Shown here: positions 2,580 to 13,745 of the stretch, one piece after another
How the letters are laid out: each line of letters starts with the position of its first letter
Position numbering within the stretch: position 1 is the first letter of the stretch
DNA from: a virus
Virus record (IMG/VR): IMGVR_UViG_3300009177_000725
Span: 1 to 31,414 of that record
DNA: 31,414 nucleotides
Strand: one strand, 5' to 3'
The notes under the pieces: model-generated
What the model was told of the DNA's origin: nothing
What the model saw: the letters and a program-made list of their open reading frames with translations, nothing else
Database searches by the model: none
Made by a program: the position numbers and the translations under genes

Positions 2580-2876
2580 ATGAACGAACCGTTGCTAGTA
2601 GAACCCACTCCGTCCGAGGATCCAGGGATGACCGATCGAGGAAGAACCGTTCGCGAAGCCATCGCGATTGCGCTCGAAGGTATCCCCGGCCAGCCTGACG
2701 GTTGGTTGTTCGTGCCGATCGAGCGAGCTGCGGTGCGCGAGCACGTCATCGGTTGGATCCAGGACTACGCGCAGCGACGCAACGTCATCCTCGATGTGAA
2801 GAAGGACATCGAGCCTGAACTCGACCTGGTGATCAAGCAGCTGCGCGGTATCGCGATTGCGAGGACACGAACGTGA
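2580..2876 (+). CDS. hypothetical protein heading the plus-strand array
   Basis: A 98-residue protein from the ATG at 2580, which lacks an obvious ribosome site. An internal ATG at 2628 (product MTDRGRTVREAI) has GAGGA upstream and is a real alternative. The body is helical and charged, with no Cys and no W-tag, so it differs from the genes after it. Its stop overlaps the next start as GTGA. Being first after the divergent control region, it probably shares the transcript of the whole plus-strand array. Family not recognised. Confidence 0.75.
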   Translation: MNEPLLVEPTPSEDPGMTDRGRTVREAIAIALEGIPGQPDGWLFVPIERAAVREHVIGWIQDYAQRRNVILDVKKDIEPELDLVIKQLRGIAIARTRT

Positions 2877-3166
2877 GCATGGCCAACATCTGGTTCGATC
2901 GCGCGTGGAAGCGGTGGCGTGCGCGCAAGCTGACGCTCGACAACATCGACAACCACCATACGCTCAGCATCATCCGCGCAGCGATGTCGGTTCCTGAAGT
3001 GCTCGATGCGAGCTTCCACGTCGTTGACTCGTTCGTTTACGTCATACACATCAAGGTGCGGCGCGGTTGGGCTGAGCTGATGAATGTGATCGACAGGGTG
3101 GAGTTGGAGCTAGAAGAGTTCGTTCCAGCTGGCTTCGACTACGACGTGTCAGGGGAATACGAGTGA
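2873..3166 (+). CDS. W-tag family small protein
   Basis: The GTG at 2873 overlaps the previous stop (GTGA). The product begins MSMANIWFDR, a W-tag with Met at position 3, followed by a very basic stretch (AWKRWRARK). The 97-residue body has no Cys; it looks like a small alpha/beta domain with strands around residues 45-60 (ASFHVVDSFVYVIHIKV) and an acidic C-terminal helix. This is the first tagged member on the plus strand and differs from most others in lacking the C-x2-C element. Function unknown. Confidence 0.8.
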   Translation: MSMANIWFDRAWKRWRARKLTLDNIDNHHTLSIIRAAMSVPEVLDASFHVVDSFVYVIHIKVRRGWAELMNVIDRVELELEEFVPAGFDYDVSGEYE

Positions 3167-3441
3167 GCCTCGCGAAACATTGGGAGCGCAAAGCGCGTCA
3201 TCGTCAACAGATCGCTTTGTTCGCGAAGCTTCGCCGATCGTTCGATTCAGAGATCGACCACATTCACATCAGGGAAGTCGTTCGCACCGATGACTTCGTC
3301 ACACCGTTTGGTAACAATGCGCCGCTGTGTCTGACCGAACCGCTCGGTGTCAAAGTTATTCGCCTGCATCCATATGTCGCTAGCTCACCTCGCCTCTGTC
3401 GCGATTGCGAAGCGAGAATGCATAGGATGCAAAGGTCATGA
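3163..3441 (+). CDS. W-tag family small protein with C...CxxC
   Basis: The GTG start overlaps the previous stop by 4 nt. The product (92 aa) begins MSLAKHWERK and continues basic for about 25 residues. The body has Cys56 (PLCL) and then C79-x2-C82 (LCRDC) near the C-terminus, which is the recurring second element of this family, probably a metal site together with one more ligand such as one of the His residues. The C-terminal tail after the Cys pair is only 10 residues. Function unknown. Confidence 0.82.
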   Translation: MSLAKHWERKARHRQQIALFAKLRRSFDSEIDHIHIREVVRTDDFVTPFGNNAPLCLTEPLGVKVIRLHPYVASSPRLCRDCEARMHRMQRS

Positions 3442-3749
3442 GCCTCAAACCGATTTGGAAAGAGCGAGCTGAAACGAAAGCGCTCGCTCGCGCAGCTGAG
3501 CCGAAGCTCGTCGACGCGTTTGGACCGTCGCCGCTCGCAGGATTCCGTCCGCTCTCGTTCCAAGAGATCCGCGACAGGTTGGTGACGGAGTTCAAACTCC
3601 AGATGCCACATTGCTCACACGCCATCGATGATCCAACGAGCAATTTCGGTCAGTTCATCAACGCAATCGCAGCTGCGGACGTCGACCTGTACAAACAAGT
3701 CGAAGCAGCGGTGAAGTTCATAGAAGAGAAAGGTGTGAAGCTCAAATGA
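3438..3749 (+). CDS. W-tag family small protein, no CxxC
   Basis: 103 residues beginning MSLKPIWKER, with ATGA overlap at the start. The basic tag is followed by a Pro-containing middle and a mostly helical body (FQEIRDRLVTEFK; DVDLYKQVEAAVKFIEEKG). There is a single Cys (C59) and no metal motif, so this is a tag-plus-helical-body version of the family. No family homology recognised beyond the tag. Confidence 0.8.
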   Translation: MSLKPIWKERAETKALARAAEPKLVDAFGPSPLAGFRPLSFQEIRDRLVTEFKLQMPHCSHAIDDPTSNFGQFINAIAAADVDLYKQVEAAVKFIEEKGVKLK

Positions 3750-4222
3750 GCATCAACAGCGTTTGGAAAGCGAAGGCTCTAGAGGAACAGCGCCGACTTG
3801 CGCTCTTGCGTCGCACGCACCTGTACCTCGTGATGGACATAGTGACAGACGAGAACGGTGACAAGCTCGTAGGCAGGCACGGCGTCTACTGCCAGACACC
3901 AGCACTCGACGGCTTCGACTACAATCGCGTGTCGACGTATGTGCATAGCGATTTCGCGGTCCGTGGTGCGGACCTCGCTCCTCGAACCGTACGAGCCGGC
4001 CGCTCCTGTTTGGATCACGACGTCGATTGCGAGACCTGCCAGCACGTATGGGAGCCGTTCCGTGAATGGGCGAAGACGCGCATACCACGACCGGATCTCG
4101 CTAGCGACGTGGAGGAGCTGAGCGAGGCGCTGAGGAAAGGCTACTCGACGGAGCCGCGAACGTTGAGGGTGGAGTCGCTCGAACAAACGCTGTCGCTCCT
4201 GCGTCCACCGAGGCGCAGATGA
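3746..4222 (+). CDS. W-tag family small protein with extended Cys element
   Basis: 158 residues, the longest plus-strand member, beginning MSINSVWKAK (Ile replaces Leu at tag position 3). Residues 25-50 are strand-like (HLYLVMDIVTDENGD), with C49; then C88, C95 and C98 (DCETC) followed by a Trp-containing helix. After the Cys element it has about 55 extra charged residues ending in PPRRR, so it may carry a second small domain. ATGA coupling at both ends. Function unknown. Confidence 0.82.
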   Translation: MSINSVWKAKALEEQRRLALLRRTHLYLVMDIVTDENGDKLVGRHGVYCQTPALDGFDYNRVSTYVHSDFAVRGADLAPRTVRAGRSCLDHDVDCETCQHVWEPFREWAKTRIPRPDLASDVEELSEALRKGYSTEPRTLRVESLEQTLSLLRPPRRR

Positions 4223-4521
4223 GCCTCGCAAGCATTTGGCGCAATCGCAAACCGATTAGCCGTGACCAGAAACCGCTCGACGCGTTCCACGCGTACATCA
4301 CGCGGCACAACGCGACCTACGACGATCGTGACTACGAAGTGCAGACGGACTACGGCGAGCTGAAGCTCTGCGAGAACATCAACATACGGCGTGCGCCGAT
4401 CGCTACGCACTCTGTCGTAGAGGTGAAAATCCGCGAGCCTTACGTCCATTGCACGAAGTGCGTGAGTGACATCGCGTGGCTGAAGAAGATGAAGTTCGGC
4501 GAGATCGTGGAACTCAAATGA
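4219..4521 (+). CDS. W-tag family small protein with C...CxxC
   Basis: 100 residues beginning MSLASIWRNR, which matches the family consensus exactly. C51 (LKLCENI) and C78-x2-C81 (HCTKC) are 27 residues apart, in the usual order, with strand-like sequence between them. The end is short and basic to hydrophobic (IAWLKKMKFGEI). Starts and ends in ATGA overlaps. Together with the genes starting at 4772 and 5660 it is among the clearest full members of the family. Confidence 0.83.
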   Translation: MSLASIWRNRKPISRDQKPLDAFHAYITRHNATYDDRDYEVQTDYGELKLCENINIRRAPIATHSVVEVKIREPYVHCTKCVSDIAWLKKMKFGEIVELK

Positions 4522-4775
4522 GCCTCGCGTCGTACTGGTGGATGCGCGCGACCAATCGCGGCACGATTGCAGGACCGATCCACCTCGTAGTCGATCACAA
4601 ACGTGGTTGCTCATTGCTCGCGTGCTCTATCTTCCCTTGCGTCGCGAGCGACGTCATAGACGCGCACGTGCAGCGCAACTTCAAAGAGCCCACCTGCGAA
4701 CGCTGCAAAAGCCTTTGGGGGTGGATTGAAACCGGCCTACTGATGCGCCGCGCATTGGAGTCATTCATCAAATGA
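4518..4775 (+). CDS. W-tag family small protein, Cys-rich
   Basis: 85 residues beginning MSLASYWWMR. The start at 4518 was chosen for the tag and the ATGA overlap; an in-frame ATG at 4476 lies inside the previous gene. Cys at 31, 36 and 41 precede C60-x2-C63 (TCERC), followed by an aromatic helix (SLWGWIETG). The segment VDHKRGC is closely matched by VDHKPGC in the first half of the fused gene starting at 5247, so these two look like recent relatives. Confidence 0.82.
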   Translation: MSLASYWWMRATNRGTIAGPIHLVVDHKRGCSLLACSIFPCVASDVIDAHVQRNFKEPTCERCKSLWGWIETGLLMRRALESFIK

Positions 4776-5056
4776 GCCTCGCTAGCCTCTGGCAGAAACG
4801 TTCCCGACTGGTGCGCCCTGCGCCACCTGTCATCCACTGGTGGGTCACGGTGTGGTTCTTCACCGCTGAGGACCCAAACGACTTCGCCGAAGACGAGCAC
4901 TTCGAGCCGAGGGGTAAGGAAGCGTGCTTGTTCTACGACGACGCCAAATCGGAGAAGTGGCACGCGCGCGATTGGCTCGAAGACGTTGAAGCGCCCCTAC
5001 CCATGCAAGACACCATCACCTGCCCCAAATGCATAGAGCTGTACATCGACCTATGA
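4772..5056 (+). CDS. W-tag family small protein with C...CxxC
   Basis: 94 residues beginning MSLASLWQKR. The middle is aromatic and strand-like (IHWWVTVWFFTAEDP) with C52 (EACLFYD), and C84-x2-C87 (TCPKC) lies seven residues before the end. Apart from the basic tag the protein is acidic. ATGA overlaps at both ends. The order tag, strand-rich segment with one Cys, spacer, terminal C-x2-C is the same as in the genes starting at 4219 and 5660. Confidence 0.83.
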   Translation: MSLASLWQKRSRLVRPAPPVIHWWVTVWFFTAEDPNDFAEDEHFEPRGKEACLFYDDAKSEKWHARDWLEDVEAPLPMQDTITCPKCIELYIDL

Positions 5057-5250
5057 GCCTCAAGGGTCTCTGGAAGCGACGTGTAGAGCAACGCATCGAT
5101 GCTGCGTTTGCAGCGAAGCACCCAATGCCTGACGCCAACGGTTGGTACGACGATCCGTTTGCAAAACTCGACAAGCTCGGTATGGAAATCCGTGAAGGGA
5201 AGACCACAGCTATGACCGAGCTTCTCGGAAAGATGTACGGTAAAAAATGA
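5053..5250 (+). CDS. W-tag family short protein, no Cys
   Basis: 65 residues beginning MSLKGLWKRR, with ATGA coupling to both neighbours. The body is one helix-rich unit (RVEQRIDAAFAAKH) and a lysine-tipped end (GKMYGKK). It has no Cys, so it is the shortest complete tagged member and shows that the tag occurs without the metal element. An upstream in-frame ATG at 5029 lies within the previous gene and lacks the tag. Confidence 0.8.
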   Translation: MSLKGLWKRRVEQRIDAAFAAKHPMPDANGWYDDPFAKLDKLGMEIREGKTTAMTELLGKMYGKK

Positions 5251-5663
5251 GCCTCACCAGCATTTGGGAACGTCGTGCCCATCGTCGCCAGCAATGGCTA
5301 CACGTCGACGGTAGGCGCGTGCTCGCACTGATGCCGGTCGACCACAAACCAGGCTGCTACGAGCAAGCTATGAGTCTCGCGTCCCTTTGGCTGCGTCGTG
5401 CGCAAAGCCAGGCGAAGCCACCGACGAGGTTCCTACACATCTCGGTGCTCGAACGCATCCCATACATCAATGGTCAATTCATCAACCAGTCGCTCGATTA
5501 CAAACTGAACGAAATGTGGCTCTGTTGCGTCCCATTGCCAGAGTTGCTCGGTGTACGCAAGATGCAAACACCGCACGCGTTTACCGACGAGCGCAGCACG
5601 TGTACCGATTGCCTGGAAGCACGCCGCAGAGTGCTCGCACAAACCGTGGACACACGACGATGA
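5247..5663 (+). CDS. in-frame fusion of two W-tag family members
   Basis: 138 residues with two tags: MSLTSIWERR at residue 1 and MSLASLWLRR at residue 42. The first 41 residues look like a truncated member: tag, then a short body ending VDHKPGC, similar to VDHKRGC in the gene starting at 4518. The second half is a full member with C93/C94 and C119-x2-C122 (TCTDC). The internal ATG at 5370 still has the ATGA context of the other junctions, but the upstream stop is out of frame. Translation may also start at 5370. Confidence 0.82.
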   Translation: MSLTSIWERRAHRRQQWLHVDGRRVLALMPVDHKPGCYEQAMSLASLWLRRAQSQAKPPTRFLHISVLERIPYINGQFINQSLDYKLNEMWLCCVPLPELLGVRKMQTPHAFTDERSTCTDCLEARRRVLAQTVDTRR

Positions 5664-6007
5664 GTCTCAACAGTATTTGGTACCGACGCTCAATGAACGC
5701 TCTCAAAACGCGTTCAGTAATTGCTACTCCATTGCACTGGCGCATCTTCCAATGGGCGTACGTCAACGAGACGCTCAACATCAACGACAGAACGCAGTAT
5801 CCCCTCGGTGTGCAGGCGTGTCTCATCAGTCACTACGAGAACGTGTCGACGAACCTTCTCGAATGGGACTCCTCGTTCCACGACAACGCAGCGATTCTTG
5901 CTGCGGCGAACGAAGGGTCACAGGTGTGCGCGAAGTGCATGGATGGCTGGCTCGACTTCGTGAGAGACCACGGCATCACCGTTTATCGGCGTGGGCGCAG
6001 CTGGTAG
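5660..6007 (+). CDS. W-tag family small protein, last of plus array
   Basis: 115 residues beginning MSLNSIWYRR, ATGA-coupled to the fused gene before it. The body is aromatic in its first half (HWRIFQWAYV), with C54 (QACLISH) and C90-x2-C93 (VCAKCMDGW), then a basic end. It is the last plus-strand gene; the non-coding convergent region follows at once. Confidence 0.82.
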   Translation: MSLNSIWYRRSMNALKTRSVIATPLHWRIFQWAYVNETLNINDRTQYPLGVQACLISHYENVSTNLLEWDSSFHDNAAILAAANEGSQVCAKCMDGWLDFVRDHGITVYRRGRSW

Positions 6008-6530
6008 CAATTGCGAAACTACAGCGCACTCTGGTGCACGTAGGAACAACAGATTTCTCATTGATAAAACGCAGTTTCAGTAATTGAGGGCGTAGCTCGC
6101 TCCCACAGCCCGGACCCTATCGAGCACGAGTTCACGGACGCCGCCGGCGCGTGACACGATCGTGCTCGTCGACGACTCGTGTGCTGTGCCGGGAGCATGG
6201 AGTTGTAAAACATAGCTGCACTCCTACGCTGCATCCTCATACTGCAATGCTAGACCGCATTGCTACGATACAATGCTATGCACCAATGCATAGAGCCAAT
6301 GAGGGTGGGTGCACCAAATGCGACCGCACAATAGAGCACGGTCTGCATTGCATTTGCGATTGCCATTGTGCGCGCATGCGATGGTGATGCGCGCGAGGCC
6401 GGGCATTAGGGGAGGCGCACACCTAGCACCACATTGCAGGTACATGCGCTACGATTGCGATGCTACGATGCGCTCCTATGCGCATATGCATAGGTGCTAC
6501 GCAATAGGAACGCCTTCCTAGAGTGCATTC
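6008..6530. other. non-coding convergent region between the two arrays
   Basis: 523 nt between the end of the plus array and the end of the minus array, with no convincing gene. The first third has large inverted repeats (6121-6182). From about 6190 to 6530 the sequence is full of short recurring words such as GCAT, ATGC, TGCAT, CAATGC and CTACGAT, giving a local composition unlike the coding regions on either side. A plus-strand frame ending at 6387 contains CTKC but is better explained by this word bias. It may hold a terminator, a replication or recombination site, or decayed gene remnants. Confidence 0.6.
6121..6182. terminator. nested inverted repeats, probable bidirectional terminator
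   Basis: CGAGCACGA (6121-6129) pairs with TCGTGCTCG (6160-6168). Inside this, TCACG (6132-6136) pairs with CGTGA (6150-6154), and CGCC (6139-6142) with GGCG (6146-6149). An alternative arm ACACGA (6154-6159) pairs with TCGTGT (6177-6182), so two structures are mutually exclusive. There is no T-tract. Position between convergent arrays supports a two-way terminator. Confidence 0.5.
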
Positions 6531-7034
6531 CTATGCAGGTGGCTTCCTGAGATGCGGTGGTGGTCCATCGAAAAACCGACTGCACTCCAGCAAGCACCGC
6601 TCGTGTAAATCGCGATTGCTCTCCAATGCCCTCCACGGTCCATTAGGTGGCTTGTCCTGTACCGCCTTGCGTTTGAGTCCTAGCTTTGCTGCGTGATGGT
6701 TCAGGATGTCAGCGACTATCGCGTAGCCTGTTTCGTCTGCGTGCGTGAAACGCTCCACGTCATACATGATGCCCTTGAGGCTGTGCTCCAAATGAGAGAA
6801 CAGCATGAAGCGGTACACCTCATCCGTTACCGCTTCCGTTCTGTCCCTCGCTAGGTGCGGCGCTGTCGTGTCGTAGTGCTCTAGCGCTTGCTTGCGCTTC
6901 ACGCCCATCACTTCGCCTATCCTGTCTAGCTGTTCGGTTCGTGCAGTCCATAAGCTAGCCGGTTTGTCATGGGCTGGTTTTGTGCGCTCCAATTGCTGTT
7001 CTAGGCGCTGCTTCCATACGGTGTGTAGCGTCAT
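6531..7034 (-). CDS. W-tag family protein, last of minus array
   Basis: 167 residues beginning MTLHTVWKQR. The start at 7034 overlaps the upstream stop. The body is helical, and part of it (ARTEQLDRIGEVMGVKR) resembles a segment of the gene at 8039-8473 (ARGRDLDAVGELLQVPR); in both a helical stretch follows. This body type lacks the C...CxxC element. The sequence pattern recalls short segments of phage structural proteins but I cannot make a family call. Confidence 0.8.
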   Translation of the reverse strand: MTLHTVWKQRLEQQLERTKPAHDKPASLWTARTEQLDRIGEVMGVKRKQALEHYDTTAPHLARDRTEAVTDEVYRFMLFSHLEHSLKGIMYDVERFTHADETGYAIVADILNHHAAKLGLKRKAVQDKPPNGPWRALESNRDLHERCLLECSRFFDGPPPHLRKPPA

Positions 7035-7195
7035 TTGCTGAACAGCGATTTCCCTGCGCTGTTACAGGTGGCGCAGATTTTGGCGATTGATAGCAGCTCG
7101 CGCGACGCATACGGCAGTTCTACGCCGCATTCGTGGCACACGTGTTTGTTACAGATGAGGCATTGGTAAACGCGTTTGTGTTGGCATTGGCTCAT
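7031..7195 (-). CDS. small multi-Cys zinc protein, untagged array member
   Basis: 54 residues from the ATG at 7195, which overlaps the upstream stop as ATGA; upstream in-frame starts lie inside that gene. Six Cys in three pairs, C12/C15, C20/C23 and C41/C44 (CLIC, CHEC, CATC), suggest a compact zinc finger resembling B-box or RING-like treble clefs. It begins MSQCQHKRVY, so the tag Trp is missing although the gene sits in the tagged array. Confidence 0.75.
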   Translation of the reverse strand: MSQCQHKRVYQCLICNKHVCHECGVELPYASRELLSIAKICATCNSAGKSLFSK

Positions 7196-7626
7196 TTGAT
7201 GTTCCCTTCTAGCAGCGCTGCCCTGATGCGAATGATGCAATCGTTGCACGTCACTGGTGTAGCTCCTGCTTTGAGGAATGTGCGTGCGATGTGTATGCGC
7301 TTGCGTTGGTAGTTGTCCCTGTACCAGCGCATGAACTGGCACACAGGCGTTTTGTTGCCGTGCATCGAGTGCACGATTGCATGGATGCGTTTGGGGTCTG
7401 GCTCTAGCAGCTCAAATAGCGGGGACATGATGTCGTCGCATTTGGGACATGTCGGTCGCAGCTGCGCGCTGTCCACCGCTACGAAGCGTTTCATCCTCAC
7501 CTGTGCGTTGCTCGTAAAGCCATCCCAAATCGAGCACAGCTCTAGCTTACACTGCTTGCGGTCGCCAGGCAGGATGTACCAGGAATGTCGTATGAGCTTG
7601 CGTTGCCAAATGCTCGCTAGGCTCAT
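7192..7626 (-). CDS. W-tag family protein with two C...CxxC units
   Basis: 144 residues beginning MSLASIWQRK. Two copies of the family's Cys element follow one another: C26/C31 with C60-x2-C63 (TCPKC), then C96 with C127-x2-C130 (VTCNDC). This points to an internal duplication of the metal-binding unit. The start at 7626 was chosen for the tag and the ATGA overlap. Function unknown; the VTCxxC ending is common in small zinc proteins of phages. Confidence 0.83.
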   Translation of the reverse strand: MSLASIWQRKLIRHSWYILPGDRKQCKLELCSIWDGFTSNAQVRMKRFVAVDSAQLRPTCPKCDDIMSPLFELLEPDPKRIHAIVHSMHGNKTPVCQFMRWYRDNYQRKRIHIARTFLKAGATPVTCNDCIIRIRAALLEGNIK

Positions 7627-8042
7627 GTGCGTTGCTCCATGTTTGTGATCCATTCGTAGCCGCATTCGCATTTGAATTGCATCGTGGGGTCGTTCAGCAT
7701 GCCGCGAATCAGCTCGATGTCGTGCGCAGCTGCGCCGCACCTAGGGCATTGCAGCTCGTCATCAGCATCGAACGTTTCAGCGAGCGTGTGGCGCGGTAGC
7801 TCGCCGTGTACAGGTGTGGCCACGATTCGCTGTTCTGTGACCACGATGTCGCCTTTACTACGGCTGCGCATCTCTGTGCATTTGATGCAAGGCGCGATGC
7901 ATCGACCGTTTGGCTGTAGACGCGTTCCAACGTAGTCGTAGCGCCTGGGATGGATGCAGCCGCAATCTACGCACTGCGTGCGCACCGTGCTCTTGGCTCG
8001 CTTCTGAGCCTGTCTGTGCTGCCAAAGGCTCGCTAGGCTCAT
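7623..8042 (-). CDS. W-tag family protein with zinc ribbons
   Basis: 139 residues beginning MSLASLWQHR. The body is richer in Cys than its neighbours: C24/C27, C48/C52/C55, C99/C102 (CPRCG) and C125/C127 (CECGYEW). The last two pairs fit a zinc ribbon of about 30 residues. It shows the tag joined to a different metal domain. The start at 8042 is set by the tag and ATGA overlap. Confidence 0.83.
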   Translation of the reverse strand: MSLASLWQHRQAQKRAKSTVRTQCVDCGCIHPRRYDYVGTRLQPNGRCIAPCIKCTEMRSRSKGDIVVTEQRIVATPVHGELPRHTLAETFDADDELQCPRCGAAAHDIELIRGMLNDPTMQFKCECGYEWITNMEQRT

Positions 8043-8473
8043 TTGCAACACTCCTCGCAAACGTGGTTGGTATCTACGCCGTGCACCGTGAGCCATTCGA
8101 TCACAATGGCGCGCAATCGGTCTTTGAATTCCTCATCGCTCTCTTTGCACACACGGTAGTCGCCGTAGTCAGGATCGTTCCTGTACGTGCCTAGCGTGAC
8201 CGCAGCGTTGTTCAACTTGATGTGGTCACGCACAGGCGCAACCGTGAGCCCAATCGCGTGTAGTACAGCGTTCAGGATGATGAGCCTGTAGGCGCGTTGC
8301 AGTGCACCGTTCAGTGGGTCATCGATGGTCGCAGGGCGGGGAACTTGTAGCAGCTCGCCCACGGCGTCAAGGTCTCTACCGCGCGCTGTGAACACGTTGA
8401 TCGCGTACAGGTCGCGCGGCTCTGCGAAGCGTGCATCAGCCTTGCGTCGCCACAGGCTCTTGAGCTTGCTCAT
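8039..8473 (-). CDS. W-tag family protein with helical body
   Basis: 144 residues beginning MSKLKSLWRR, a tag lengthened by one residue. The body contains ARGRDLDAVGELLQVPR and later DEEFKDRLRAIVIEW, a pattern like that in some phage baseplate-type proteins (inference from pattern only), and is partly shared with the gene at 6531-7034. It ends in CEECC. The start at 8473 is set by the tag and an ATGA overlap. Confidence 0.8.
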   Translation of the reverse strand: MSKLKSLWRRKADARFAEPRDLYAINVFTARGRDLDAVGELLQVPRPATIDDPLNGALQRAYRLIILNAVLHAIGLTVAPVRDHIKLNNAAVTLGTYRNDPDYGDYRVCKESDEEFKDRLRAIVIEWLTVHGVDTNHVCEECCK

Positions 8474-8733
8474 TTGCGTTTGCTCTTTCTGATGGCATCG
8501 ATCAAGCGGTACAGCGATGCATCTACGATCTCGAACGTAGCCACCACGCACATCAAGCCTGATGTGACTAGGAAACCAACGCCGCCGATTGTCATTGGTA
8601 CGTTTGCTGCGATGAGCATCGGCAACACGCACAGCAAGACAAACCGCATGCCGTTTGTACGCCACGAGGTTTGCTGTTTGATGTCGCGTGCGAACCATGG
8701 CCATAGCAGCCGATCAACCGTTCGGAGCTTCAT
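8470..8733 (-). CDS. small membrane protein in minus array
   Basis: 87 residues with two adjacent hydrophobic spans (about 30-48, FVLLCVLPMLIAAN, and 50-72, GFLVTSGLMCVVATF) separated by a short turn, and basic residues at both ends. This predicts a two-pass inner-membrane hairpin. The start MKLRTVDRLLW has a Trp at residue 11 but does not match the tag. AAGGA precedes the ATG at 8733. It is the only membrane protein in the arrays. Confidence 0.75.
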   Translation of the reverse strand: MKLRTVDRLLWPWFARDIKQQTSWRTNGMRFVLLCVLPMLIAANVPMTIGGVGFLVTSGLMCVVATFEIVDASLYRLIDAIRKSKRK

Positions 8734-8753
8734 ATGGGATTCGTCCTTCCGCT

Positions 8754-9005
8754 CTATAGGTCTTCATCGTCGATTGCCTCTAGTGCAAACAGCTCGCGTG
8801 CAGCGCGGTAGCTCTCGTCATCCGATGAGAACGCTGCATGCACTTCTTCTGGCGTGTACAACATGCGCACCTCGCTTGCCGGTCCGCGGGCCGCTTGCTG
8901 CAACAGCTCGTTTAGGTCGCTGTTGTCCACGCGTCGACACGTGAGCATGTCAGCGAGCGCTTTGCGTCGACGAGCACGCGCTAGCCAGTGTGCGCCTAGA
9001 GGCAC
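8754..9005 (-). CDS. W-tag family protein, GTG start
   Basis: I chose the GTG at 9005 because it yields a tag-like N-terminus (VPLGAHWLARARRRK, initiator Met in the cell) and a 10-nt overlap with the upstream gene. The 83-residue body is acidic toward the end (FALEAIDDEDL) with one Cys and no metal motif. The segment LYTPEEVHAAF could be a small helical domain. A 20-nt gap separates it from the membrane-protein gene, the only gap inside the minus array. Confidence 0.72.
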   Translation of the reverse strand: MPLGAHWLARARRRKALADMLTCRRVDNSDLNELLQQAARGPASEVRMLYTPEEVHAAFSSDDESYRAARELFALEAIDDEDL

Positions 9006-9220
9006 GGCAATCCCAATCGCTCGCGACACGTGGGGCAATCGACGAGCTTGAGATCGAGCCCAAACCAATGGCGCGCGTTCATGCGGATCGTGCGTGCAAC
9101 GTAGCCATCGAAGTAGAACGCGCTCACCTCGCAAACCTTCGTGCGTGAGCCACGAGCTTTGCGAGCGTGCACATACTCTTCAGGGCCGAGCACGCGACGC
9201 TTCCAAAGCGTCGCCAGCAT
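8996..9220 (-). CDS. W-tag family small protein with C...CxxC
   Basis: 74 residues beginning MLATLWKRR, a tag one residue shorter than the consensus (position 2 missing). C30 (KVCEVS) and C62-x2-C65 (DCPTC) give the standard Cys element, with aromatic strands between. The ATG at 9220 overlaps the upstream stop as TGATG. Ends with a further Cys (GLPCL). Confidence 0.8.
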   Translation of the reverse strand: MLATLWKRRVLGPEEYVHARKARGSRTKVCEVSAFYFDGYVARTIRMNARHWFGLDLKLVDCPTCRERLGLPCL

Positions 9221-9624
9221 CAGTAACGAAACCTCGTGCTCGCGTAGCGATCGAACACGCTCGGTCGTTCGGCTTTGCGTTCCTCGTGAAGCTTGATCGT
9301 CTTCAGTGCCTTGATCGCTTCAGGACTCATGCCGGCATACTCGATCTCATCGCGGCGCCTCGCAAACACCGCGAGGTTCAGCTCGATCGCAGCCCACGAC
9401 GAACCATCAGGCACCCAACCTTTGAGGATGCGGTCCTCAACATCAGCGATGTACATGCGCCGTTGCTCGTCTAGCTCGGCGAGCAATTTGGGTGTGCGCT
9501 CGATCGCCTCAAACATCGCGCGCTCTTGATTGGCGATGATGCGCTCGGCCGCTTGCTCTTGTGCCAAGCACATACGCTGCCAAAGCGTCATGCCGTGTTT
9601 GTTCTGCCAATGCGACTTCAGCAC
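9220..9624 (-). CDS. W-tag family protein with a doubled tag
   Basis: 134 residues from a GTG that overlaps the upstream stop by one base (TAGTG). Two tag-like starts lie head to tail: VLKSHWQNK and, from an internal ATG at 9591, MTLWQRM. The body is a long, highly charged helical region (residues about 15-130) with no Cys, unlike the zinc-type members. The doubled start may mark a past fusion, or an alternative initiation site. Confidence 0.78.
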   Translation of the reverse strand: MLKSHWQNKHGMTLWQRMCLAQEQAAERIIANQERAMFEAIERTPKLLAELDEQRRMYIADVEDRILKGWVPDGSSWAAIELNLAVFARRRDEIEYAGMSPEAIKALKTIKLHEERKAERPSVFDRYASTRFRY

Positions 9625-10115
9625 TAGAACCGCCTTTGGACCGAGATGAGACGGTCAGTGCCAGTTGCGTACGCGAGCGAGCCATCGCGCATGCTGCGCC
9701 AAATGAGGCGTTTGTTCAGCTCCTCGCGTAGCTCGTACTGCTCCTCGCCACCGAACAACAATTCCGATAGCACTTCGGCGCAATCGTCGCACAGGTCGTT
9801 TGCGATCACCGTGTAGGTGGGCGCGATGATGCAATCGCTTGCAAAGCTGTCATTGGTTGGCATGACGAGCGCAGCCAGCCTCGGGAACTCTAGCGAAGCC
9901 GTGCGTCGCATGTTGCCGGCATAGCGCCTGCACACCCAATACTCGGTGTTGTCGTTGAAACATGCGTAGGCATGGCCATCGACTGCACGCGTGTTCTCGC
10001 GCAAACGATTGAACGCTGCGATCGTCTCACGTGCTGCGCCGTGCATCTGCGGCTTCACCTCTAGAGGCTTCCACGATGAGCGTGCTCGCCCCTTCCAAAT
10101 GCTCTTGAGTGTCAT
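9624..10115 (-). CDS. W-tag family protein with C...CxxC
   Basis: 163 residues beginning MTLKSIWKGR. The body has C52 and C62 in an aromatic segment (ACFNDNTEYWVCRRY), C95, then C109-x2-C112 (LCDDC), with about 50 residues after the Cys element. Start at 10115 by tag and ATGA overlap. Function unknown. Confidence 0.82.
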   Translation of the reverse strand: MTLKSIWKGRARSSWKPLEVKPQMHGAARETIAAFNRLRENTRAVDGHAYACFNDNTEYWVCRRYAGNMRRTASLEFPRLAALVMPTNDSFASDCIIAPTYTVIANDLCDDCAEVLSELLFGGEEQYELREELNKRLIWRSMRDGSLAYATGTDRLISVQRRF

Positions 10116-10756
10116 GGGCGCATCCCTCCACGCATGAGGCTTGCTTCTTCGTTTGTGGTGTAGCTCGTGTATTCGTTCTCTGGCCTGTTCGGTCCAAACA
10201 AGCGACCAAAGATCGCGGTGCAAATCGAGCACGCGTCAGGAACGCGTGACACCTCGCTGATGAACTCGGCGTATTCGCGAAACAGAAAAGTCTGGTGAGC
10301 GTAGATCGCACCGCACGCTAGCTCACCGCTCGTTGCACTAGACCAACGCAGGTGCGTGAACTCTTCGCCGTAGTGCGGATCGTTGATCATGCCAACCCAC
10401 GTCGCGATGTCGTTCGCCACCTCGAAGCAACGCTCGCAACCAACCGCGCCACCTTGGGTGAGGAACTTGCGCACGGTGGTTTGTGCCGGCCACAGCTCAT
10501 GGCGTGGCAGATTGAACGCGCGCGCCGATTGGAATGCAGCCTCATTCCAGCCGCACAACGTGTGCCGTCCGTTGTTCTCGTGAGGCGGTCGCAGCAAATG
10601 CGAGAACGTCTTCATGTCTTCTCTACGCTTGTAGGTTGACCAATGCGGCATCTTTCCAGGCTTGCCGAAGATTCGCTTCCCTAGCTTGCGCTGTCGCTCT
10701 AGAAGCAACGCATAGCGCTTCCGTGCGCGCTCGCTCCAAACGGTAGTGATGCTCAT
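10112..10756 (-). CDS. W-tag family protein with duplicated C...CxxC unit
   Basis: At 214 residues the longest member, beginning MSITTVWSER, with a strong ribosome site (AAGGAGAAGCAGGAG) before the ATG at 10756. Two Cys units follow in order: H-x2-CG with C68, C107 and C110 (GCERC), then C148 (ACGAIY), C176 and C179 (CSIC). The H...CG...CxxC pattern is common in small hypothetical zinc proteins of phages and actinobacteria. Its own ribosome site suggests it can be translated independently of the gene before it. Confidence 0.83.
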   Translation of the reverse strand: MSITTVWSERARKRYALLLERQRKLGKRIFGKPGKMPHWSTYKRREDMKTFSHLLRPPHENNGRHTLCGWNEAAFQSARAFNLPRHELWPAQTTVRKFLTQGGAVGCERCFEVANDIATWVGMINDPHYGEEFTHLRWSSATSGELACGAIYAHQTFLFREYAEFISEVSRVPDACSICTAIFGRLFGPNRPENEYTSYTTNEEASLMRGGMRP

Positions 10757-10974
10757 CTCCTGCTTCTCCTTGTGCGCCGCTTCGCTCTGCGAAACTCAGA
10801 GCAACCGCATTTGCACGGTGTCGCGTACGTTGCGCCTGTCTTCGTGTCTAGCTCCATGTGCGAGATGCGAGGGTGACCGCACACGCACAAATCGGTCCAC
10901 TTCCAGCGCTGCACCTTGCGTCTCTTTGGGTGCTTCGCGTTGTGCTTCTCACGCCACACGCTCGCGAGCGTCAT
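10753..10974 (-). CDS. W-tag family small zinc protein (CxCGH type)
   Basis: 73 residues beginning MTLASVWREK. The body has C30-x-C32-G-H34-x4-H39 and C54-x-C56-x-C58 (CKCGCSEF), a compact zinc-binding pattern found in many short phage and bacterial proteins, then an Arg-rich tail (RRAKRRTRRSRR) suited to nucleic-acid binding. The start at 10974 is chosen for the tag and ATGA overlap. The metal domain is different from the C...CxxC unit of its neighbours. Confidence 0.82.
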   Translation of the reverse strand: MTLASVWREKHNAKHPKRRKVQRWKWTDLCVCGHPRISHMELDTKTGATYATPCKCGCSEFRRAKRRTRRSRR

Positions 10975-11435
10975 GACACGGTCCACATCCCTAGCTCCGT
11001 GATGATGACGCCAGGTGGCGCGTGATCGCGGATGTTGGCCTGCACGTCAGCCGGCACGCACTGCCACATCTCAGCGTGGTGGGCCAGGTTGTGCTCACAC
11101 GCCGGGCAAAGCGTGCAGCCGTCCACCTTCATCAGCTGAAAGTGCGGCTTGTTCGTCATCAGCTCGCACGGTAGCTCGCACAGGTGGATGCGCGTGCGGT
11201 AGACCTTGTTGCACTTGGCAACGTTGACGAGCGCTCCTAGCGTGGCGTTATCGAGCCGAGCGTTCGACAGGTTGGTTGCAGGGTTGAACATCAGCGGCAC
11301 CTCAGCGATCTGATCGCCGATCATATGCTCGACGTGCCACATCACAGCCCACGCGTGATAGATGCCTGCGTTCTCGTCCGCATCTCCGATCGCGCCTTGG
11401 ATCGCCTTGCGTCTGAAATGACTCGCGAGACTCAC
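10971..11435 (-). CDS. W-tag family protein, first of minus array
   Basis: 154 residues from a GTG at 11435 with AGGTGAG upstream, beginning (V)SLASHFRRK, where Phe replaces the tag Trp. Cys at 86/90 and 107/110/113 (CTLCPAC) give the Cys element. Just upstream is a possible seven-residue leader frame (MMNQGEL) whose stop overlaps this GTG and which has GAGGAG before it, so translation may be coupled to a leader peptide (low confidence). It lies downstream of a terminator hairpin and so starts a transcription unit. Confidence 0.8.
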   Translation of the reverse strand: MSLASHFRRKAIQGAIGDADENAGIYHAWAVMWHVEHMIGDQIAEVPLMFNPATNLSNARLDNATLGALVNVAKCNKVYRTRIHLCELPCELMTNKPHFQLMKVDGCTLCPACEHNLAHHAEMWQCVPADVQANIRDHAPPGVIITELGMWTVS

Positions 11436-11501
11436 AACTCACCTTGGTTCATCATGTGCATGCTCCTCGTGGTTATCACACAGGTCTGACCAACGACGAA
11501 A

Positions 11502-11915: not shown

Positions 11916-13745
11916 CTACGCCATGAAGTCAAAGTTGAAATGGTTCGTGCCGCGCAAGCGGTCCATCGCGAGCTGGCTGTAGAACAACGCGTGCGCTAGG
12001 TGATCGTCGCTCGTCGAGTTGATCACCTCGATGATCTCTTCGGTCTCTTCGTCCTGTTCGAGCATCGGTGCGAGCGCCTTCAAGTGATCCACGATCGCAC
12101 GCGAGATTTCGTATTCCATGTTGGGGAACGCGATCTCGCGATCCTTGATGAGCCGACACAGGTTCTTCAGCGCGAGCGTTCGATCGCACAGCACTTGGTT
12201 ACGAGCTGGTTGCCATGACGGCGTGAACGTCTGGCCACCCTTCTCAGCTGGATTGTAGCGGCACGCAAAGAAGCGACCCTCACCGTAGCGGCGTAGCAAG
12301 TACGCGTTGCGGTCTTTGCCGTAGCCATCGTCAGCGATAATCATGTCCGGCTTGTACTTGTCGATCCACGCATCGATCTTGCGAACGCTCTCTAGCTCCT
12401 TCGAACGATTGTCCTCAAACACAGCGCCGTTCATGATGTACTGCCGGCCGTTCGTGTTGAGACCCTTCACCACGATCCAATTCTTGTGGCCCCAATCGAT
12501 GCCCACCGTGACGTAGACCCAATCGTCCGTGCGGTAGTTGATCAGCGGATGGCCTGCGGTGGCCATGTCGAAGTCGTTCTCGTTTAGGAGCATCGACTCG
12601 CCGAGCGAAACCTCGCCGAGCACGTAGTTCGTCCAAAGCTGAATGAACTTGTAGTCCACTCGCTTTTGCATGATGTCGGTCGCGCTGAGCCAGATCGCGA
12701 TCATTTGCGGCATGTGATAGCCGCGCCAGCGCTTCACGTTTGGACGCTCGGCGACCCACTCACCGTTCAGGCGATCGAGCGTGCCTCCACACTTCGTCTT
12801 GCTGCAAACGAACGCAAATGCGTCCGGTGGTAGTTCCTTGGGAAGCACCATCGGCAGATCGATTTGCTGCTTGATGTTGTTGTGCGTGATTTGCTGCTTC
12901 ATGCCGCAGCGCGAGCACTTCACGAACCATTGACGCTTGTCGCTAAGCTGGTAGGTCTCGTCCACGCCACGGTTCGGGAGGGTTGGTGTCGACACGTCGC
13001 GCACCCACCCAAACGGAGACGATGACATCGACTCCTTGAAGGCGACTTCGATGCCGGCCTTCATGCGGTCCTTCTCATCGAACACGACGACGTCAGCGTT
13101 TACACCTTCGCCGAGTCCAGCTTCCCACGCGCTACGCAGAATCAGGTGAGAGTTGTTGATGCGCTTCGTTTGCTGTTGATTCACACCGGTGAGCAAACGC
13201 CGCATGCGTGGCGTCTCTGCAAACGCAGGATTGATGCGCGTGGTGGCGAGCGTCTCCAGCTGCTTGTCACGAGGGAACGTGTAAATCAGGTTCGTGTTGT
13301 CGTGCTGATCGAGGAAGCAAATCGCTTCGGTAAGCGAAAGCTCGGTGATACCGATCTGTCGTCCTTTCTTGTAGACCTTCTGAGGGTGCTCATCGCGCAG
13401 CGGTTCGATCTGCCACGGCCGATGCTTCTGCATCATGGAGATCTTGTGGCGCGCTAGCTCGCGAGGCGTTGCAGCGCGATCCTTGGCCCACTTTGCAAAC
13501 GCGTCTTCGGTGATGTGGCGCGCGACGTCGAACACCATCGGCGAGCCCTTGAGACGACGGTTGTACATCGTCCAAATGACCGGATCGAGCTTCGACAGCT
13601 GTTCGAGCGCTTCGCGCGTGCCTGACTTGGGCAGGTTCGCGAACAGCTCCTCGATGCGCTTCTGCTTGTCCGACTTCGCGGTGCCTGGCGGTGCAGCGCC
13701 GGGCTGTTCGTCCTGTCGGTCCAGCACCTCTTCCAGATCAGCCAT
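11916..13745 (-). CDS. terL: terminase large subunit
   Basis: 609 residues; packages DNA into the prohead using an ATPase motor and a headful or cos nuclease. ATPase: a Walker A-like loop at 127-136 (KGRQIGITEL) and Walker B at 219-224 (VVVFDE). A zinc-finger-like insert has C277-x2-C280 and C314-x4-C319. The nuclease part shows the expected acidic residues D417 (GIDWGHKNW), D472/D473 (IIADDGYG) and D580/D581 (TSDDHLAHAL). The Cys-rich insert and order fit the lambda gpA-like large terminases better than the T4 gp17 type, but that placement is inference. The ATG at 13745 has AGAGGT upstream. Confidence 0.93.
   Translation of the reverse strand: MADLEEVLDRQDEQPGAAPPGTAKSDKQKRIEELFANLPKSGTREALEQLSKLDPVIWTMYNRRLKGSPMVFDVARHITEDAFAKWAKDRAATPRELARHKISMMQKHRPWQIEPLRDEHPQKVYKKGRQIGITELSLTEAICFLDQHDNTNLIYTFPRDKQLETLATTRINPAFAETPRMRRLLTGVNQQQTKRINNSHLILRSAWEAGLGEGVNADVVVFDEKDRMKAGIEVAFKESMSSSPFGWVRDVSTPTLPNRGVDETYQLSDKRQWFVKCSRCGMKQQITHNNIKQQIDLPMVLPKELPPDAFAFVCSKTKCGGTLDRLNGEWVAERPNVKRWRGYHMPQMIAIWLSATDIMQKRVDYKFIQLWTNYVLGEVSLGESMLLNENDFDMATAGHPLINYRTDDWVYVTVGIDWGHKNWIVVKGLNTNGRQYIMNGAVFEDNRSKELESVRKIDAWIDKYKPDMIIADDGYGKDRNAYLLRRYGEGRFFACRYNPAEKGGQTFTPSWQPARNQVLCDRTLALKNLCRLIKDREIAFPNMEYEISRAIVDHLKALAPMLEQDEETEEIIEVINSTSDDHLAHALFYSQLAMDRLRGTNHFNFDFMA

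Follow-up and report, generated by a model that had tools for sequence, protein, structure and literature searches.

Does an open reading frame that carries the same N-terminal tag twice record how an array of related genes grows, or damage to such an array? The question is raised by an ORF at 5247-5663 on the plus strand of a virus record of 31.4 kb, probably incomplete, which was analyzed over its whole length and is referred to here as the window. The ORF belongs to an array of about twenty consecutive small genes, the majority of which begin with a common ten-residue sequence.

The tag, its arrays and the protein family

The tag follows the consensus M-(S/T)-L-x-(S/T)-(I/L/V)-W-x-(K/R)-(K/R), which both units of the fused ORF match. 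It occurs 17 times in the window, whereas shuffling the sequence gives 0.04 matches on average, and no match lies outside positions 2800-11500; its occurrence is far beyond chance. Tagged genes joined by ATGA or GTGA overlaps form an array on the plus strand (2873-6007), and a further array with more tagged genes occupies the minus strand (6531-11435), downstream of the gene for the terminase large subunit (11916-13745, minus strand). Serine at tag position 2 is encoded by AGY in 15 of 15 cases, the tag at 5370 included, against a background of 0.40-0.47. This bias is consistent with selection for an ATGA overlap, although biased codon use extends to other positions of the tag. At 9220 and 9624 on the minus strand, the tags begin with ML rather than MS or MT. 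These genes have ATGC and GTGC starts, and no TGA overlaps them by four bases.

The window terminase, distantly similar to those of SPO1-type phages (about 35-37% identity), served as the query in a search for relatives. A virus record of 118.7 kb, here called G001, has a terminase 61% identical to it. Downstream of its terminase gene, G001 has an array with tags such as MTLNTIWKRR, MTLSTLWKRR and MTLAALWKRR. The two contig ends of G001 share an overlap of 128 bases (99.2% identity, one mismatch), and the record is therefore probably circular or terminally repeated, with the array spanning the ends. No convincing tag was found in the stretches fetched from more distant records (34-51% identity). 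Searches of viral contigs with tag patterns gave G001 and, beyond it, only apparent chance matches, and no closer tag-bearing relative was identified by way of other window proteins or by a terminase profile in genomes. The larger point is the array itself, which is named by no library searched and is kept in the same location downstream of terminase in a distant relative.

Twelve aligned members from the window and G001 are invariant at M1, W7, H23, C52, C78 and C81, numbered as in the unit at 5370. Judging by this pattern, the His, the Cys and the CxxC pair are likely to form a zinc site. Leave-one-out HMMs were run on the bodies without the tag, each scored against 100 shuffles; 14 of 15 members were recognized (0 to 2 of 100 shuffles equal), while for the gene at 8996, 9 of 100 shuffles were equal. 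The CxxC is missing from the tagged genes at 5053, 3438 and 6531 and from a 56-aa gene of G001. Because tagged genes such as 5053 and 3438 are without the pattern, the tag is carried by more than one kind of body. Tagged genes other than the fused ORF encode 56-214 aa, and the remaining tagged proteins observed in the window phage and G001 each have a single tag. The tagged proteins showed no significant match in Pfam, PHROGs, PDB sequences or fold searches.

The two-tag ORF and its internal start

The frame is open throughout 5247-5663 and encodes 138 aa, with one tag at residue 1 (MSLTSIWERR, 5247-5276) and another at residue 42 (MSLASLWLRR, 5370-5399), both intact at all conserved positions. 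A single frame does therefore join two tagged units, as a sequence-only reading of this DNA had reported. The ORF has an ATGA overlap at its 5' end with gene 5053-5250 and another at its 3' end with the gene at 5660.

The downstream unit (5370-5663, 97 aa) has the tag, H23, C52, C78 and C81, and its body is recognized by the leave-one-out HMM with 0 of 100 shuffles as good; it is a complete family member by itself. Modeled alone with AlphaFold, it reaches a pLDDT of 81.4 and a pTM of 0.62, with the tag as part of a helix at residues 3-14, and is predicted to fold independently. Residues 42-138 retain the elements of this stand-alone unit in the model of the fused protein.

The upstream unit consists of the tag and a truncated body of 31 codons (5277-5369) with His19 and Cys37. 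It continues into the second tag and has no CxxC half. Codon use of 5247-5369 is coding-like (0.164 per codon), and every other frame scores negative. The family HMM does not recognize the upstream body (residues 11-41; 31 of 100 shuffles as good), which may be a lack of power, the body being only 31 codons long. Its kinship to any single family member is weak. The same sequence-only reading had the first 41 residues end in VDHKPGC and matched this motif to VDHKRGC of the gene at 4518. The motif is present, at residues 31-37, but the true end is VDHKPGCYEQA. The similarity gives p of about 0.003 in a pairwise shuffle, yet 38 of 400 shuffles do as well family-wide, and there is no DNA-level match at this region; we rejected it as evidence of kinship. 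Residues 1-40 have a pLDDT of 42-56 in the fused model, partly because the aligned sequences cover none of them, and the 41-residue extension is probably poorly folded. A short tagged protein without CxxC is possible, given the genes at 5053, 3438 and 6531 and the 56-aa gene of G001.

The internal start differs from nearly all others in its surroundings. Among 18 tagged starts, 16 overlap a TGA that closes an upstream frame of 86-227 codons; the exceptions are 11435, with 38 upstream codons, and 5370, with 13. In the plus-strand array, all tagged starts but 5370 have a long upstream frame that terminates in an overlapping TGA. The TGA across ATG 5370 (5371-5373) is in the +1 frame, in agreement with the earlier observation that the stop is out of frame. 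That the start sits in an ATGA context like those of the gene junctions is also true but uninformative. Any tag beginning with ATG followed by AGY or ACN gives ATGA, which therefore offers no separate evidence of a junction, and three G001 tags (L002 16296, L007 18346 and L007 19826) keep ATGA without such an overlap, their upstream TGA frames being of 34, 22 and 3 codons. We rejected ATGA as a footprint, since it follows from the tag codons. Frameshifting was considered as a route to termination between the units and not favored: the TGA at 5371 is within reach of a +1 shift, but inspection by eye revealed no slippery site, and the -1 frame has no stop at this point.

Translational coupling in E. 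coli and Haloferax requires overlap or very short spacing (PMC10666635), and ATGA is the commonest arrangement among coupled gene pairs (PMC6728339, PMC10666635). Because ribosomes from 5247 do not terminate before 5370, reinitiation at 5370 would be lost. The anti-SD energy before 5370 is -2.5, at the 32nd percentile of random sites and thus weak; the initiation sites at 5053 and 8473 are no stronger in this score. The intact member is probably produced at present mainly as a fusion.

Origin of the fusion

These observations suggest, with a probability of about 0.6, that the ORF is a truncated tagged member fused to its intact neighbor. An imprecise deletion would have removed the 3' half and the stop of the ancestral upstream gene or, alternatively, a partial copy of a member would have been inserted; the remaining 5' end would be left in frame with the next gene. 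Ribosomes from 5247 would then pass 5370 unstopped, and the intact member would be made mainly with a 41-residue extension. The missing CxxC half and stop point to loss more than gain, and the fusion looks like damage to the array, not like the way the array grows. The fusion is known from a single metagenomic contig. No relative of the fused protein or of either half, and none showing the unfused state, was found among viral contigs and five records, a search that may leave out very near records, and no DNA match appeared in a phage collection. That the internal tag is intact suggests either a recent event or some continuing initiation at 5370.

The genes might instead be nested: the start at 5370 would still yield a separate 97-aa member, with the fusion an additional or minor product. 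We consider this unlikely. The internal tag is preserved together with its ATG and the AGY codon for serine, and a complete domain begins at 5370, but the ribosome-binding site is weak, no upstream stop overlaps the start, and ribosomes from 5247 cross the site in frame.

It is quite improbable that residues 1-41 add a second tag recognition sequence kept by selection, making the ORF a functional two-tag protein. The integrity of both tags and the coding-like codon use of 5247-5369 are consistent with such a role, and an extended N-terminus is found elsewhere, of four residues in a G001 protein (MSIS-MTLPSLWRRR). However, residues 1-41 have low predicted confidence and contain half of a putative metal site, and all other tagged proteins of both phages bear a single tag. 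The broader proposal that the tag is a portable N-terminal address, placed by a phage lineage on a large cassette of proteins that are small, fast-diverging and probably zinc-binding, with the two-tag protein a working bivalent member, strikes us as very doubtful.

The true sequence might also have a stop between the units, if the contig contains a sequencing or assembly error or represents a minority variant. One metagenomic contig is the source, and the overlapping TGA is only one frame off. Yet the upstream unit would still be about 40 aa, below the 56-214 aa of the other tagged genes, so that a truncation would remain to be explained, and we regard an error as very unlikely.

Most unlikely of all is array growth by duplication or recombination at tag-encoding DNA, the origin that had been proposed for this ORF: tag DNA is indeed the main repeat in the window arrays (23-27-base blastn matches) and the bodies encoded by some gene pairs, for example 4772/5660 and 7623/10112, are related, but a crossover within the tag would keep the overlap between upstream stop and ATG that is missing at 5370, the break lies in the 3' half of the upstream gene, blastn found no recent DNA duplication outside the tags in the window arrays, and residues 1-41 are only weakly akin to gene 4518.

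The fusion also provides a natural test of tag function. Should the tag act only at the extreme N-terminus, decay of its internal copy would be expected in relatives. Preservation of the internal tag would mean either that the internal start is in use or that the tag is functional within the chain.

Known systems and further observations in G001

No described phage tag like this one was found in the open-access literature. The closest working analogy appears to be the capsid targeting sequence of T4, an N-terminal stretch of about ten residues on the internal proteins IPI, IPII and IPIII, whose bodies are divergent; it has been suggested as a route by which T4-like phages package various proteins (PMC9026906). 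The window tag is likewise a short common N-terminus on several divergent small proteins, but its sequence is different and it is found on about twenty genes in arrays rather than three. We do not class it with the T4 targeting sequences, because tags such as MSLASIWRNR and MTLAALWKRR have no acidic LxE/IxE-type cleavage motif ending the leader and no S77 or S78 prohead protease was found in the window, a fragment, or in G001, by a search that may miss divergent ones. Like termination-reinitiation pairs, tagged genes almost always overlap the gene before them, by ATGA or GTGA; unlike the usual coupled pairs, the overlap is encoded in the tag codons, and 5370 has no coupled stop. The bodies resemble Phage_zn_bind_8 (PF24623) and similar small phage proteins in their Cys/His metal-site patterns. 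Only 1 of the 12 aligned members matched PF24623, at a non-significant E of 0.056, and fold searches gave no match.

Several features of G001 deserve mention in their own right. The member at L007 19524-19838 (minus strand) starts four codons ahead of its tag, and the upstream stop overlaps this earlier ATGA; it is a further, minor instance of tag extension. Another tagged gene, at L002 16296-16470 and with its remainder at the end of L007, spans the overlapping contig ends and has a tandem repeat that codes for ILRNG. A 17-base identity between L002 16159-16175 and L007 19766-19782 (E 0.002 in a small database) is found after a short tagged gene without CxxC and again inside another member; it is possibly a trace of duplication. 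Finally, the tagged genes at window 10753-10974 (minus strand) and G001 L002 13792-14031 (plus strand) have in common a Cys-rich body with CVCG (local score 39), and this similarity indicates that they may be orthologs.
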